From the NCBI RefSeq assembly GCF_030160295.1, contig NZ_BSOB01000051.1, positions 1-54,560 on the forward strand: a stretch of DNA of 54,560 nt, read 5' to 3'. Below the pieces are notes generated by a model that saw nothing but the letters and a program-made list of their open reading frames with translations, was not told where the DNA came from and did not search any database. The DNA comes from Dyella acidisoli. Its GTDB lineage: Bacteria; Pseudomonadota; Gammaproteobacteria; Xanthomonadales; Rhodanobacteraceae. Shown piece after piece: positions 2,779 to 12,241 of this stretch; position 1 is the first letter of the stretch, and each line of letters starts with the position of its first letter. Made by a program: the position numbers and the translations under genes.

Positions 2779-3600
2779 ATGAACACGCCCTCCTCGCCGT
2801 CATCGAACGATACCCGTCACGGCAGCTTAGTCTGCGTTGGTCTTGGCATGACCCTGGGTTCGCACCTCACACCGTTGGCGCGCAGTCACATCACGCAAGC
2901 AGATGTGGTGTTCGCAGCGCTTTCCGATGGTGTCGTGGAGATGTGGCTGGAACGCATGCATCCGGATGTGCGCAGCCTTCAGTCCTACTACCAGGAGGGC
3001 AAGTCGCGCATGAAGACCTACCGCCAATGGGTTGAGGTGATGATGGCGGAGGTGCGCGCCGGCGAGCGTGTTTGCGGGGTGTTTTACGGTCATCCGGGCA
3101 TTTTTGCCTGGTCACCGCACAAGGCCATCGAAGTCGCGCGCGCGGAAGGTTTTCAGGCGCATATGGAGCCAGGCATTTCTGCCGAAGACTGTCTTTATGC
3201 CGATCTGGGCATCGATCCCGGGCGCTTCGGCTGCCAGCATTTCGAGGCCAGCCAGCTGCTTTTTTATGAGCGCCGCATCGATCCCGCCGGCTATCTGGTG
3301 TTGTGGCAGGTTGGGTTGGTTGGCGATCGATCGCTGGCGCGCTTTCAAACCGGGCCGGCGTATCGGCAGGTGCTGGTGGATCTGTTGAGTCGCGACTATC
3401 CGCTAGACCACGAGGTGATAATCTACCGCGGGGCAACACTACCGATTGAGAAACCGCGCGTCCGCCGCGTCGCTCTGCGCGATCTCCCTCGTATCCAGAT
3501 CACCGTTGAGGAGACGGTGGTATTGCCGCCAGCAGAAGCCCTGAAGCCGAACCTCGCCATGCAAGAGCGGTTGGAGGCACTGGACAAAGCGGGCGCCTAG
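2779..3600 (+). CDS. Borosin-type peptide alpha-N-methyltransferase (split type)
   Basis: A 273-residue SAM-dependent enzyme of the tetrapyrrole (corrin/porphyrin) methylase fold. Beyond the fold, it carries the blocks diagnostic of borosin methyltransferases such as fungal OphMA and Shewanella SonM: GSLVCVGLG (15-23), YYQEGKSRMKTY (70-81), VFYGHPGIF (101-109) and PGISAEDCLYADLGIDPG (from 131). R77 and Y81 fall where OphMA has catalytic R72 and Y76; Y71 aligns with Y66, while the Y63 position is Gln. These enzymes methylate backbone amides of a peptide. In OphMA the substrate is fused to the enzyme; here there is no C-terminal extension, so the substrate must be separate, and a fitting gene lies 206 bases downstream. 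A classical cobalamin or siroheme role is unlikely because no such pathway genes are near. Confidence 0.85.
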   Translation: MNTPSSPSSNDTRHGSLVCVGLGMTLGSHLTPLARSHITQADVVFAALSDGVVEMWLERMHPDVRSLQSYYQEGKSRMKTYRQWVEVMMAEVRAGERVCGVFYGHPGIFAWSPHKAIEVARAEGFQAHMEPGISAEDCLYADLGIDPGRFGCQHFEASQLLFYERRIDPAGYLVLWQVGLVGDRSLARFQTGPAYRQVLVDLLSRDYPLDHEVIIYRGATLPIEKPRVRRVALRDLPRIQITVEETVVLPPAEALKPNLAMQERLEALDKAGA

Positions 3601-3806
3601 GAGTGATGTAAAGGACTCGACCTAGGGGGACGGTCTTTACATAACGATATCCGCCTCTAGGGAAGGCGGGTTTCAGCAGCAAATTTGCAGGTCAAAAAGC
3701 GCTGGCGGCAGCAGTCGTCTCGCTTTATCACGCTGACGCCTGGATGACGTCGGCGTATCAGCGTCATCTTGCTGTTCCATGACAAGCAAAGTGGGGGAGG
3801 AAACAT
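3601..3806 (+). other. Leader between the methyltransferase and precursor genes
   Basis: A 206-bp gap with no convincing open frame. A weak hairpin, GTAAAG...CTTTAC (about 3608-3640), follows the methyltransferase stop. A longer imperfect inverted repeat built around TGACGCC and GGCGTATCAGCGTCA lies at about 3730-3765. It could hold a separate promoter or an RNA processing site that sets precursor levels apart from enzyme levels. This is inferred from position alone. Confidence 0.35.
3792..3800 (+). promoter_or_regulatory. Strong ribosome-binding site of the borosin precursor candidate
   Basis: TGGGGGAGG six bases before the ATG at 3807 is one of the strongest Shine-Dalgarno sequences in the window. 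The methyltransferase has none this good. That fits a substrate peptide made in excess over its enzyme. Confidence 0.6.
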
Positions 3807-4109
3807 ATGGCAGACACGATCGAATTGCTGGAGGCCATCGGCCAGAACGCATCCTTGCGTTACGCATCGGCCGATGAATTGACACGCATGCTCGAGCAGG
3901 AAAAGGCGTCCAAGGGCCTTACGGCTGCAGTGGCGCTTGGTGATTGCGCGCCATTGTTTGCGGAACTCGGGCCTAAGCCGATGAATGCGCCGCAAATTTC
4001 TCAGGCTCCCGCCCGCGAGGACGACGAGCCCGAGGAAGAAGAAAACGACATCGATGAGCCGCTGAATATCCGCACGCTCGATCACGGCAAGTCGTTTTCG
4101 CCGCACTGA
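3807..4109 (+). CDS. Candidate split-borosin precursor peptide
   Basis: A 100-residue protein with no signal peptide. Residues 1-55 are predicted helical and carry the pattern L-L-E-A-I-G-Q-N-A-S-L near the start and A-A-V-A-L-G-D-C-A-P-L-F near residue 45. This resembles the helical borosin-binding domain of SonA, whose matching segments read LGQDAQL and AVMTGD. Then come a linker, a run of acidic residues (about 70-84, EDDEPEEEEND) and a short tail LNIRTLDHGKSFSPH. In RiPPs the core lies at the C-terminus; here it is not the usual hydrophobic Val/Ile-rich stretch, so methylation sites cannot be called. Pairing with the enzyme rests on order, strand, length and N-terminal resemblance. It could instead be a regulatory partner. 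Confidence 0.7.
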   Translation: MADTIELLEAIGQNASLRYASADELTRMLEQEKASKGLTAAVALGDCAPLFAELGPKPMNAPQISQAPAREDDEPEEEENDIDEPLNIRTLDHGKSFSPH

Positions 4110-4119
4110 CGAAGTCACT

Positions 4120-5901
4120 ATGTCCCGGCTGGCGAGCCGCTTCCGGTTATGGCCTGTAATAGTGGCCATCGCTTGGAGCGTGCTCGCGCAGCCTGGTTAT
4201 GCTGCCACGTCCATTACAAACGGGGCTGCGTTTCTCGATCAAACGGAAAGCCTGCGCACCACGGATCACCCGCGGTTCGTGCAAATGCTGGCGCAGATTC
4301 ACCAGGAAGCACCTCGCCTCACCTCAAGAGAGCAATGGCATTTACGTTATCTCGATGCATGGGAAACCATGTTCGAGGGCGACTACACAAAATCCGAAGT
4401 GATGCTCCATGAGGTGATTGATCATTCCGGTGATGCCGGCCTTGCTGCAAAGGCATCGGCGCTACTCCTCACCAACCTCGCGGCCAATCGACGCTACGAG
4501 GAAGCCTTCGCACTGGCCAATCATGTGACGACCTGGCTGCCCGCGGTGAAGGACCCGCAGGTCCGCTTCATGTTGCTGATGAACCTGTCGCAGATGCTGG
4601 ACATTGCCGACCAAACCGACTTGGCCATCAAGTACGCACACATGATGGAGGATGCTGTTCCTCCTGGCGAAACGCTGTGCCGTCCTCGCTCTTTGCAAGC
4701 TGCAGCGCTTTTCAACGCCAAACATCTGACATCTTCCAGCCCGGAACTGCAGCAGGCCATCGATACCTGCGTAGCCGCCGGGCAACCGATCCTCGCCAAC
4801 ACCATGTGGCTGGTTCTGAGCAGCCTTTACCTGGATGAAAATCAACCTGCCAAGGCGATGGCCCTGCTCGATCGGATCATGCCCAGCATCCGCACCAACC
4901 ACTACTATCCTCACATGCTGTCAGCGCAGGTGCAGCGGGCACAGGCATACGCAAAGCTGGGGGATGACAGCAACGCGCGGACGGCAGCACTCGCTGCTGT
5001 GGCCATGAGTGGCCCCAACGACATCAACGAGTGGCTGAAAGATGACTACGAGGTGCTCTATCAGGTCGAGAAGAGGCAAGGTCATTTGGCCGACGCACTT
5101 GCTGCCTACGAGCATTACGTCATCCAGGACAAGGGACATCTCAACGACATCAGTGCTCGAACGCTGGCGTACGCCGCTACCCAGCAACACCTGCTGGTGC
5201 AAAAACTCGAAACCGACAGCCTGAGCAAGCAGAACAGCATCCTGCGCCTGCAACAGGCACTGGCCACCAAGGCGGTCGAAACCAGTCGGCTTTACATCGC
5301 GCTGCTGCTCGTGGTGCTGGTATCCATCGTGTTCTGGCTGTTCCGGCTCAAGCGTTCGCAGCTTCGCTTCAAACAGCTCTCATGCCTGGATGGGCTTACC
5401 GGCATTCTTAATCATCAGCATTTCGTCAGCGAGGCTGCACGCGCGTTGCATTTGCTGGAAAAAAAATCCGGCAGTGCCTGCTTGATATCCATCGACCTGG
5501 ATTACTTCAAGCAGGTCAACGACACCCACGGCCACGCCATTGGTGATGCCGTGCTCCAACACACCGTAACCATCTGCAAGCAGCATCTGCGCACAAGCGA
5601 TCTGTTCGGTCGTCTCGGCGGCGAAGAATTCGGCATTCTGCTGGTCGATTGCTCCAGTGACCAAGGCACCGCTATTGCCGATCGCATCCGCAAGGCCATT
5701 GAAGCTACACCCGTGGATGTAGACGGTAGCGTTGTATCGTTTTCCGCCAGCTTCGGCGTGGCCTGCACTGATACATCCGGTTACGAACTGCAACGCTTGT
5801 GCAGGGAAGCCGACGCCGCGCTCTACAGGGCCAAACGCACCGGGCGCAATCGCGTTATTACCGACGCAGAATGGGCGTTTGACGGAAGCCTGGAAGCGTA
5901 A
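4120..5901 (+). CDS. Membrane diguanylate cyclase with periplasmic TPR-like sensor
   Basis: A 593-residue protein that should make cyclic di-GMP. Residues 1-28 form a signal sequence ending GYAATS. Residues about 30-385 form a periplasmic helical-repeat (TPR-like) sensor. A transmembrane helix lies at about 389-410, then a GGDEF domain at about 425-585. The active-site motif is GGEEF (500-504), and RTSD (491-494) is a well-placed RxxD inhibitory site, so product feedback is expected. It starts 11 bases after the precursor stop, so the two are almost certainly co-transcribed. This links the borosin locus to c-di-GMP signalling, at least in expression. Confidence 0.9.
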   Translation: MSRLASRFRLWPVIVAIAWSVLAQPGYAATSITNGAAFLDQTESLRTTDHPRFVQMLAQIHQEAPRLTSREQWHLRYLDAWETMFEGDYTKSEVMLHEVIDHSGDAGLAAKASALLLTNLAANRRYEEAFALANHVTTWLPAVKDPQVRFMLLMNLSQMLDIADQTDLAIKYAHMMEDAVPPGETLCRPRSLQAAALFNAKHLTSSSPELQQAIDTCVAAGQPILANTMWLVLSSLYLDENQPAKAMALLDRIMPSIRTNHYYPHMLSAQVQRAQAYAKLGDDSNARTAALAAVAMSGPNDINEWLKDDYEVLYQVEKRQGHLADALAAYEHYVIQDKGHLNDISARTLAYAATQQHLLVQKLETDSLSKQNSILRLQQALATKAVETSRLYIALLLVVLVSIVFWLFRLKRSQLRFKQLSCLDGLTGILNHQHFVSEAARALHLLEKKSGSACLISIDLDYFKQVNDTHGHAIGDAVLQHTVTICKQHLRTSDLFGRLGGEEFGILLVDCSSDQGTAIADRIRKAIEATPVDVDGSVVSFSASFGVACTDTSGYELQRLCREADAALYRAKRTGRNRVITDAEWAFDGSLEA

Positions 5902-9534: not shown

Positions 9535-9921
9535 CTACTCCATGTCTTCGCCCAGCATCTTGCGCTGGATCTGGTCCAGGTAGGTGTCCAGCTCATGCAT
9601 GCTCTGGAAGATTTCCTTGATCGGCACGGCCTTCACGATATCGAACACCTTGCGCACTTGCACCTGCGGGTTCAACAGCAGCGTTTGACCATCGCGTGCG
9701 CGCATCAGCTTTCGGGCCTTGGCGATGCTGCGCAAGCCTGCGCTGCTGATGTATTCGAGCAACGATAAGTCGAGCACCAGCGTGCTGCCACTTTCCATCT
9801 GCTGTAGCACTTTGTCCGCCTCCCGGTCGAATTCACCGAAGGTCAGTGCATCCAGGCGACCTTCCAGGTGCAGCGTGGATTTGTGCGGACTCAATGCATC
9901 GATGTGCAGCTTAAAGGCCAT
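9535..9921 (-). CDS. STAS-domain anti-sigma factor antagonist
   Basis: A 128-residue single-domain STAS protein of the SpoIIAA/RsbV type. The strand-helix core with the phosphorylatable serine is LSLLEYISSAGLRSI. In partner switching, the unphosphorylated antagonist binds an RsbW-like kinase and frees its target. The ATG at 9921 follows CCCGGAG; a start 10 codons upstream is possible but lacks a site. The gene overlaps the end of the phosphatase gene by 11 bases, so translation is probably coupled. A C-terminal amphipathic helix (DTYLDQIQRKMLG) extends beyond the usual domain. Confidence 0.85.
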   Translation of the reverse strand: MAFKLHIDALSPHKSTLHLEGRLDALTFGEFDREADKVLQQMESGSTLVLDLSLLEYISSAGLRSIAKARKLMRARDGQTLLLNPQVQVRKVFDIVKAVPIKEIFQSMHELDTYLDQIQRKMLGEDME

Positions 9922-12241
9922 GATCGTGCTCCGGGAGATAGGAACAGGCAAAGCGCAGTTGCAGATGATTGCCGTATTCGTCGTAGGTGTAGATCAACTC
10001 GCTGGCCATGGCGCGCACGAGGTGGATGCCCAGGCCACCGATCTCTTCCTTATCGGCAATGTCGCCGGTGAGGCTGGGCGAACCTGATTGCAGCGGATCG
10101 AAAGGTTCACCGTCATGATTCAGCTCCACCAGGATGGCCTCTTCCACCACCGTGAGGCGCAAACCAATCGTGTCTTCGCGTTCCTGCGAGCGTCCGTGTT
10201 GCACCATGTTGACCATCAATTCTTCCAGCACCAGGCGCACGTCGGTGCGCAGGTCGTGCGGCACACTGGCCACGCGCAGGGTTTCTTCGCAACGCCCCAA
10301 TGTATCGAAGACCTCATGCAGAGCGGCAGGAAAAACCAGTTCGAGCATCGAAGCGCCCTCTTCCAACCCAACGTGATTCCATCGCAACGCCACCAGCGCG
10401 ATATCGTCGGACTGCCCATGTTCGGCCGAATAGTGCTCGATATCGTCGACCAGAAATTTCACCGGATCGCCATCCCCACCTTCATGATACTGCCCGATCC
10501 TGGCGATGATTCGCTCGCCGCCATACGGAATCAATGCAGCGTCGGTGGCTTCGGTTACACCGTCTGTATACATCAGCAAGGTATCGCCCGGCCGCATGCG
10601 AACGCGGTGGATGGGATACAACGCGTCTTCGTCCAATCCCAGGGCAGGGCCTGACGCGAGCGGCAACCATTGCGGCGGAACATTCTGGCCCCATCGCACC
10701 GGCGGATCGTGGCCCGCACTCGCCATGGCCATGTTTCCACTCACTGCGTCCAGGAAACCGCAGAGCAAGGTGACGAACATGCAATTTTCATTGTTCTTGC
10801 ATAGCTCACGGTTGAGCAGCTGCAGCAGATGCTGGGGGGATTGCGCGCGCGTCGACATCGCCTTGGCGAGCGTAATGGTGCGCGCCATGAACAGGGCGGC
10901 GGGAATGCCCTTGTCCGCCACGTCGCCGATGATCACGCAGAAGCGTTGGCCGGGCAGCATGAAATAGCTATAGAGATCGCCGCCCACGATTCTGGCTGGC
11001 TTCAAGGCGGCGAACAGCTCGAAGTTCTGGCAACGCGCATCGAGATAGTGCGGCCCCGGCAGCAGATCTGTTTGTATCTGTTGCGCGATTTCCAGCTCGC
11101 TGGACAAGCGCTGTTGCTCGCGCGCGATGCGCGTGAGTTCAACCAAGTGGGCAGCCAGTTCCTGTCGCATCTTGTCGAATGCGCGAGTGAGTCGACCGAT
11201 CTCGTCCGAACGGTGCACTTTCGGCAGGGCAAAATCCAAGGCGCCGCGAGCGACTAATTCCGCGCCCTCCGCCAACATGCCCAACGGTGTCAGCAGACGC
11301 CTGATGATCATCATCGTAAGCAGCGCAAGCAACAGTAACGTAAACGCGCCGGTTACAAGCACCGATAGAAACGCGCGCTGCACCTGTGCATAGATGAGCT
11401 CATTGGGCACCACCAGAGCCAGATTCCAATCGGTGCCACGGATCGGCTGGCTGTAGACCCACACATCCCCTTGCTGGTCTTGCAGGTGCAGGCTCGACCA
11501 GCCATCGGAAGTGACATTCGCGCGCAAGGTGCCAAGCAAGGGCGAATCGGCCTTTTTCCCGACTAGACCGGGAGTGTCATTGGCCAAGTACATGCCTTCC
11601 CAGTCGACCACAAACACATGTGTGCCAGCAGGGACATCCATCGACAACAACACGCTTTGAAGCCAGTCGAGCGTCACGTCCGCATTGACCACACCGATGA
11701 CCTTGCCATCGACTTGCATCACCGATGAGTAACTGACCAACTGCCGATGACGCGACTGCGATAGGAATGGCGCTTGCCAGCAGCCTCGGTCACAAGCAAC
11801 GCCCTTCTTGAACCAGGGCGCTTCCCAATAAGGCAGCGGGTCTTTGAGGAGGTCGCGCCGCTCGAGCGAGCCATCGTATTGGCGACTGACGAAGGGCGAC
11901 TGGCCGGCGCTTTTGACGGCTGGCGTATTGGGAACGAAGGCTGCCGCCAACCCTGCCAGGTCGGCGTTTTCCGCCATGGCATCGCGGATCAGCGACTCTG
12001 CATCTCCTGGGCGTGGTCCGATGATGGCGGCCAGCACCCGCGCCGTATTCGTGACCTTGTCCATTCTTTCCTGGATCAGGCTGCTGCCTTGGCTGGCGAG
12101 CGCCTCGGATTCCCGATGGGTCTGCTCCAGCAGGCGATGCCCCACCATCCGAAACAACAGGAATCCACTCGCAACGAACACCACGGTTGCGCCGGACAGA
12201 ACCCACACAGCTAACCGTGAAGCAAGGCTGCGCAATACCAT
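9911..12241 (-). CDS. Cache-HAMP-PP2C (SpoIIE-type) phosphatase fused to an RsbW-like ATPase
   Basis: A 776-residue inner-membrane regulator. It has a transmembrane helix at about 11-33, a periplasmic double-Cache domain to about 285, a second helix at about 291-315 and a HAMP domain. A SpoIIE/RsbU PP2C phosphatase follows at about 400-615 with metal-binding GGDLYSYF, VIGDVADKG and QSDDIALVAL. A C-terminal HATPase_c domain of the RsbW type runs from about 640-765, with N-box VLEELMVNMVQHG and GGLGIHLV. Carrying both phosphatase and kinase-like ATPase lets one protein switch the phosphorylation of the STAS antagonist encoded next to it. No matching sigma factor is nearby, so the output may be another target. 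Confidence 0.9.
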   Translation of the reverse strand: MVLRSLASRLAVWVLSGATVVFVASGFLLFRMVGHRLLEQTHRESEALASQGSSLIQERMDKVTNTARVLAAIIGPRPGDAESLIRDAMAENADLAGLAAAFVPNTPAVKSAGQSPFVSRQYDGSLERRDLLKDPLPYWEAPWFKKGVACDRGCWQAPFLSQSRHRQLVSYSSVMQVDGKVIGVVNADVTLDWLQSVLLSMDVPAGTHVFVVDWEGMYLANDTPGLVGKKADSPLLGTLRANVTSDGWSSLHLQDQQGDVWVYSQPIRGTDWNLALVVPNELIYAQVQRAFLSVLVTGAFTLLLLALLTMMIIRRLLTPLGMLAEGAELVARGALDFALPKVHRSDEIGRLTRAFDKMRQELAAHLVELTRIAREQQRLSSELEIAQQIQTDLLPGPHYLDARCQNFELFAALKPARIVGGDLYSYFMLPGQRFCVIIGDVADKGIPAALFMARTITLAKAMSTRAQSPQHLLQLLNRELCKNNENCMFVTLLCGFLDAVSGNMAMASAGHDPPVRWGQNVPPQWLPLASGPALGLDEDALYPIHRVRMRPGDTLLMYTDGVTEATDAALIPYGGERIIARIGQYHEGGDGDPVKFLVDDIEHYSAEHGQSDDIALVALRWNHVGLEEGASMLELVFPAALHEVFDTLGRCEETLRVASVPHDLRTDVRLVLEELMVNMVQHGRSQEREDTIGLRLTVVEEAILVELNHDGEPFDPLQSGSPSLTGDIADKEEIGGLGIHLVRAMASELIYTYDEYGNHLQLRFACSYLPEHDHGL

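Follow-up and report, generated by a model that had tools for sequence, protein, structure and literature searches.

A borosin-type methyltransferase, its precursor and a predicted TPR-GGDEF diguanylate cyclase form a three-gene cassette in Dyella acidisoli

Split borosins, in which the backbone N-methyltransferase and its substrate are separate proteins, are known in bacteria (described in parts of PMC8429565, PMC11285071 and PMC11395268). The closest described system is SonM/SonA of Shewanella oneidensis, a type IV split borosin that consists of a discrete alpha-N-methyltransferase and, encoded apart from it, a precursor whose leader has five helices (the relevant sections of PMC8429565). 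The same sections state that no split borosin pathway had at that time been linked to a final product. In OphMA and the fungal borosins, which have the same methyltransferase family, the substrate is fused to the enzyme (a passage of PMC11395268). A contig of the soil bacterium Dyella acidisoli (family Rhodanobacteraceae; NZ_BSOB01000051.1, assembly GCF_030160295.1), whose full 54,560 nucleotides are termed the window here, carries the enzyme and precursor as separate genes. An original prediction, made from the letters of this DNA, proposed a split borosin pair. The enzyme and the SonA-like precursor are supported, but the proposal was incomplete, as it overlooked the adjoining gene at positions 4120–5901. 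Methyltransferase, precursor and TPR-GGDEF cyclase together make up a cassette of three genes, a variant on the already known split bacterial borosins.

Compared with SonA, the D. acidisoli precursor is longer and has an approximate 30-residue acidic tail after the putative core, and it is followed by the TPR-GGDEF gene. SonM/SonA is compared here without its gene neighbourhood; the term GGDEF occurs 0 times in the main text of PMC8429565. The legend of Figure 1 in PMC11395268 names GGDEF as a domain in a figure of borosin types, and this may be the TPR-GGDEF-methyltransferase fusion that is also found here. The window differs in having three separate genes, and the legend passage mentions neither TPR domains nor a pairing of copy numbers nor an acidic tail. 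No published account was found of the three-gene cassette, its matching copy numbers and shared distribution, the periplasmic TPR part or the tail pattern, in a search that did not cover the split-borosin surveys; exactly this cassette may already have been described. Two such surveys, by Cho et al. and Imani et al., are cited in the part of PMC11285071 consulted.

The methyltransferase is encoded at positions 2779–3600 (+ strand) and is a 273 amino acid protein with no fused substrate, in which the borosin motif blocks quoted in the original prediction are present. A phmmer search of the PDB gives SonM with E = 7e-76 over residues 15–265 and OphMA with about 2e-49, and Pfam gives TP_methylase (PF00590) with 4.2e-21. 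The identity to SonM is 48.2% across 251 aligned residues. SonM residues Y58, R67, Y71, F99, E146 and W166 are kept as Y71, R77, Y81, F109, E156 and W176; SonM Q178 is not kept. Y71, R77, Y81, F109 and W176 are invariant in 44 aligned methyltransferase sequences, and Y58, R67 and Y71 of SonM are described as acting in catalysis (in the section concerned of PMC8429565). On this sequence evidence the protein belongs to the OphMA/SonM family and very probably methylates backbone amides in a small ribosomal peptide.

The next open reading frame, at positions 3807–4109 (+), encodes the precursor of 100 amino acids with the motifs first quoted for it. The ribosome-binding site, predicted to be very strong, is indeed GGAGGA (positions 3796–3801), five bases 5′ of the ATG at 3807. 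Searched as a single sequence, the precursor matches nothing in Pfam or NCBIfam up to E = 1 and nothing significantly in the PDB; a single-sequence search found relatives at 73 of 83 methyltransferase loci, which, like the enzyme's matches to SonM and OphMA, is well above chance. A profile was made from 85 precursors found near related methyltransferases. When this profile is compared with the PDB, SonA chains are the first seven of 14 matches, with weak E-values (0.012 to 0.042) and a specific rank. The predicted model shows five helices over residues 2–54 and has low confidence beyond these; the SonA leader is likewise described as five helices (PMC8429565, in part). Foldseek with the precursor fold gave no significant match, with SonA at E = 8.4 only. 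Profile rank and predicted helices speak for the SonA-like helical N-terminus, and structure comparison does so weakly.

Residues 1–55 (positions 3807–3971, +) are taken as a leader with a SonA-like borosin binding domain, on the basis of the profile rank and the predicted helices. SonA is methylated at L63 and I65 (according to a passage of PMC11285071), and Q63–S65 of the D. acidisoli precursor appear to match these by position. From the alignment and the SonA sites, the core should lie around residues 56–68, and the candidate core PKPMNAPQISQAP is encoded at positions 3972–4010 (+). The acidic C-terminal tail follows as residues 69–100 (positions 4011–4106, +).

The third gene of the cassette, at positions 4120–5901 (+), encodes a predicted TPR-GGDEF diguanylate cyclase of 593 amino acids, assigned by Pfam, an AlphaFold2 model (mean pLDDT 93.6) and linkage in relatives. 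It has an N-terminal signal segment, a TPR superhelix at residues ~31–354, a membrane helix (~385–413, with a hydrophobic segment at 385–413) and a GGDEF domain at 423–578. The Pfam GGDEF match is 1.9e-41, and the active site is intact, with GGEEF at residues 500–504. The TPR part is predicted to be on the periplasmic side. Two of its cysteines, C187 and C217, are invariant in 81 aligned sequences. RxxD product-inhibition sites are found in 98 of 145 TPR-GGDEF open reading frames. Comparison of the whole cyclase model with the PDB is dominated by GGDEF rows.

Like the RRNPP receptors, e.g. the Rap phosphatases, the cyclase has a TPR superhelix, to which a short peptide from the neighbouring gene may bind. 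RapF is among the PDB matches of the TPR profile (E = 0.0019), and these TPR matches are non-specific. RRNPP receptors are cytoplasmic and have a DNA-binding or phosphatase output, whereas the cyclase has a signal segment, a membrane helix and a GGDEF output.

The linkage of the three genes was counted on the TPR part in two samples. Sample 1 comprises 80 loci from a species collection and the two paralogous loci of D. acidisoli, with the window locus left out of the counts; for sample 2, 60 loci were picked by hand, with many of them belonging to other families. For 78 of the 84 methyltransferases in sample 1 the TPR part lies downstream on the same strand. It is only upstream in one, the second methyltransferase of locus L021, which has a GGDEF fragment after it; three lie at contig ends and two have none. 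Among the 61 methyltransferases in sample 2, the TPR part is downstream of 40 (counting L127, where the TPR match is weak and GGDEF is missing), upstream of 6, fused to 6 and absent from 9. In the six fused loci the methyltransferase is at the C-terminal end of the TPR-GGDEF protein in one open reading frame. Six other neighbours in the window are not conserved across the fetched loci of relatives (E 1e-10), and the cyclase gene is the sole conserved neighbour among those tested.

The fusions (L106, L115, L116 and L132–L134) are 829–893 amino acids long and have a SonA-like precursor of roughly 70–87 amino acids upstream. In a tree of the enzymes, 122 fall into one group (TPR part downstream in 115 and upstream in 1, with 3 at contig edges and 3 having none), and a 14-member group holds all the fusions. 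SonM is placed beside this 14-member group with weak support (0.565), and eight unlinked enzymes fall outside both groups. The precursor profile missed precursors at several sample 2 loci, where candidates were found by eye only. At L094 to L100 the short open reading frames after the methyltransferase end, as seen by eye, in a hydrophobic stretch, proline or glutamate-proline, and an acidic run. Two genomes have a single 545-aa open frame with two tandem methyltransferase matches (G586:C52:3838-5448 and G650:C345:2758-4368).

The three genes also have a shared distribution. In 147 Rhodanobacteraceae genomes, which are not independent trials because they are related, the methyltransferase is present in 94 (E 1e-50), while the TPR part (E 1e-30) and the precursor (E 0.001) are each present in 91. 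Precursor and TPR part occur in the identical 91 genomes, all within the 94, and the remaining three carry the fusion. Presence and absence change jointly inside genera: one Dyella genome (G017) is without all three, and in genus g9 four members have all three genes and at least two have none of them. Across the order the methyltransferase is found in 95 of 200 genomes (E 1e-40), and across the class in 9 of 369 (E 1e-40), two of these from Rhodanobacteraceae.

Whole-genome searches in D. acidisoli yield three methyltransferases, four precursors and four homologues of the TPR part, one behind each precursor; GGDEF matches total 31. The two further methyltransferases are 77% and 64% identical to the window enzyme, and their loci are built alike. 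One, on contig C37, has the order methyltransferase, precursor, TPR-GGDEF; the other, on contig C14, has methyltransferase, precursor, TPR-GGDEF, precursor, TPR-GGDEF.

The acidic tail is associated with the position of the precursor. A precursor was scored as directly before a TPR-GGDEF gene when within 160 bases of it, and acidic residues were counted as D or E after residue 60. In sample 1, 81 of 100 precursors are directly before TPR-GGDEF, and all 81 have at least seven acidic residues. Fifteen of the 19 precursors elsewhere have fewer than six, both precursors of L058 being low-acid; the other four, in L060, L063, L078 and L081, have at least six. In L062 a low-acid precursor lies 251 bases before a TPR gene and so is scored as elsewhere; with a wider cut-off it would break the rule. 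The contrast (Fisher 1.5e-14) is uncorrected for relatedness, and the pattern was first seen by eye and counted on the same loci. In sample 2 only 2 of 39 precursors are non-adjacent, both with at least six acidic residues, and the contrast is thus not assessable there.

Luteibacter sp. dw_328 (L043:6885-9141) shows seven tandem precursors behind one methyltransferase, with the acidic tail only in the last, which is beside TPR-GGDEF. At L082:6536-7144 an FSxALMxP-like unit recurs about five times at the C-terminal end of the precursor, which has no acidic tail and is possibly a multi-core precursor.

The best reading of these data is a borosin cassette coupled to cyclic di-GMP (c-di-GMP) signalling, in which the methylated peptide would most likely be the ligand of the periplasmic TPR part. 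Taken as a whole chain it is put forward tentatively, as a reading of which we are slightly more doubtful than confident. The methyltransferase would dock the precursor's helical leader, in the manner of SonM with SonA, and N-methylate the backbone amides that come directly behind it, at residues ~61–68; judged from the likeness of both proteins, this first step is highly likely. That the pair would work with the adjacent membrane diguanylate cyclase is likely, on the basis of linkage, fusion and co-occurrence. The modified peptide would then reach the periplasm or the outside and be bound by the TPR superhelix, and binding would change GGDEF activity and hence the c-di-GMP level. This last step is plausible, with somewhat more doubt than confidence attached to it. 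The acidic tail would mark a precursor as belonging to a cyclase, and D. acidisoli would have four peptide/receptor pairs served by three methyltransferases.

Several findings weigh against this reading. Two sample 1 methyltransferases (L058 and L069) and nine in sample 2 are without TPR-GGDEF; two of the nine (L135 and L136) are extra distant copies in Dyella genomes. Copy numbers of TPR part and precursor are unequal outside D. acidisoli (5 and 3 in G022, 5 and 2 in G033, 5 and 3 in G112, 1 and 4 in G049). Ten of 37 sample 2 precursors adjoining a TPR gene lack the tail, nine of them SonA-like and from the 14-member clade, and the tenth, L098, by the count. The TPR matches (E 0.002) and superhelix alignments lack specificity: they include a designed protein with a better score, as well as kinesin light chains and APC/C subunits. 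The precursor has no signal peptide apparent by eye and no transporter or protease family is found among ten proteins scanned, which leaves no explanation for how the peptide would get to the periplasm. The average charge of the TPR regions is negative (mean net −7.5, sd 6.3, in 145 open reading frames), and the acidic tail is therefore not simply an electrostatic handle; a pairing of the tail with a basic TPR domain is rejected on this mean charge.

The order of events may also be the reverse, in a borosin natural-product cluster whose TPR-GGDEF protein senses an unrelated periplasmic cue; the peptide would be the output, and c-di-GMP would control its production, activity or release. Fusion of the methyltransferase to the cytoplasmic C-terminal end of TPR-GGDEF in six loci could put the enzyme under direct cyclase control. 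The extra tail-less precursors (six of the seven in L043, and the multi-repeat one in L082) are as for a product, and the RxxD product-inhibition sites point the same way. This proposal leaves unexplained the TPR-GGDEF gene behind each of the four D. acidisoli precursors, including the methyltransferase locus with two successive precursor-cyclase units, and also the association of tail and adjacency in sample 1. It is considered rather unlikely.

An intracellular partnership is more doubtful still. Here the precursor, methylated or not, would bind either the cyclase, on its cytoplasmic side, or a methyltransferase-cyclase complex; it would serve as a regulator inside the cell, with no export. 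This would suit the precursor with no apparent signal peptide, the lack of transporter and protease families among the ten scanned proteins, and the fusions that place the methyltransferase next to the GGDEF domain in six loci. The conserved sensor is, however, a TPR superhelix with two invariant cysteines behind a signal segment, and released peptides are the best-known case of backbone N-methylation. The proposal is judged improbable.

It is very improbable that the locus is a plain type IV pair like SonM/SonA, with the cyclase as a co-inherited neighbour that has no functional tie. Methyltransferase and leader do match SonM/SonA, and related genomes tend toward a common gene order; the six other neighbours, however, are not conserved, the cyclase is linked downstream, upstream or fused across families, and its presence or absence tracks the pair in the 147 genomes. 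A tetrapyrrole (cobalamin or siroheme) methylase with an unrelated small neighbour, suggested by the name of PF00590 and the outcome that would have counted against the original prediction, can be practically dismissed, as the sole tetrapyrrole enzyme among the PDB matches listed, precorrin-2 C20-methyltransferase, has E = 0.0026 against 7e-76 for SonM, the seven tetrapyrrole or YabN NCBIfam models listed score 13–37 bits against cut-offs of 163–525, and the borosin catalytic residues are kept.

The remainder of the window adds the following. The intergenic region between methyltransferase and precursor (positions 3601–3806, +) contains, besides the ribosome-binding site, a predicted G+C-rich hairpin (~3646–3674). 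RNA fold z-scores are −2.55 for 3645–3690, −2.39 for 3601–3700 and only −0.23 for 3601–3660. The hairpin at 3645–3690 could set the methyltransferase and the precursor at different expression levels. Rfam shows no family across the window at gathering score. A Pfam scan of ten window proteins, lying between 899 and 13508, yields no protease or transporter family. This agrees with the earlier statement that no protease, transporter or tailoring gene is adjacent, although that statement missed the conserved neighbour at 4120–5901. The shewasin-like aspartic peptidase family (PF00026), with shewasin known as a borosin protease, has no match in the genome; the control is likewise 0 of 14 genomes, so the search leads to no conclusion.

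Just upstream of the cassette (positions 899–2685, +) are a Cache-HAMP protein without a Pfam output domain and a weakly DUF4388-like protein, present in 1 and 0 fetched loci, respectively. At positions 9535–12241 (− strand) a STAS-domain protein adjoins a Cache-HAMP-SpoIIE-HATPase protein. The pair resembles a partner-switching module, with a SiaA-like match far under the cut-off (73.7 of 700 bits), and is not conserved with the cassette.

To our knowledge most bacterial borosins have no assigned function. Since the enzyme/precursor pair lies beside a c-di-GMP membrane sensor in nearly all relatives examined, the peptide may be a signal. In a Gram-negative peptide-signalling system of this kind, the periplasmic TPR domain of a diguanylate cyclase could have a backbone-N-methylated ribosomal peptide as its dedicated ligand, giving a borosin-controlled c-di-GMP switch with several pairs per genome, in which the tail marks signalling precursors as opposed to tail-less product precursors; this is offered as a possibility about which doubt clearly prevails. 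For genome mining, precursors are to be sought directly before a TPR-GGDEF gene, and two classes, tailed and tail-less, are set apart. A cassette of enzyme, precursor and second-messenger synthase points to a concrete function that can be tested, in which a ribosomal N-methylated peptide would control c-di-GMP.
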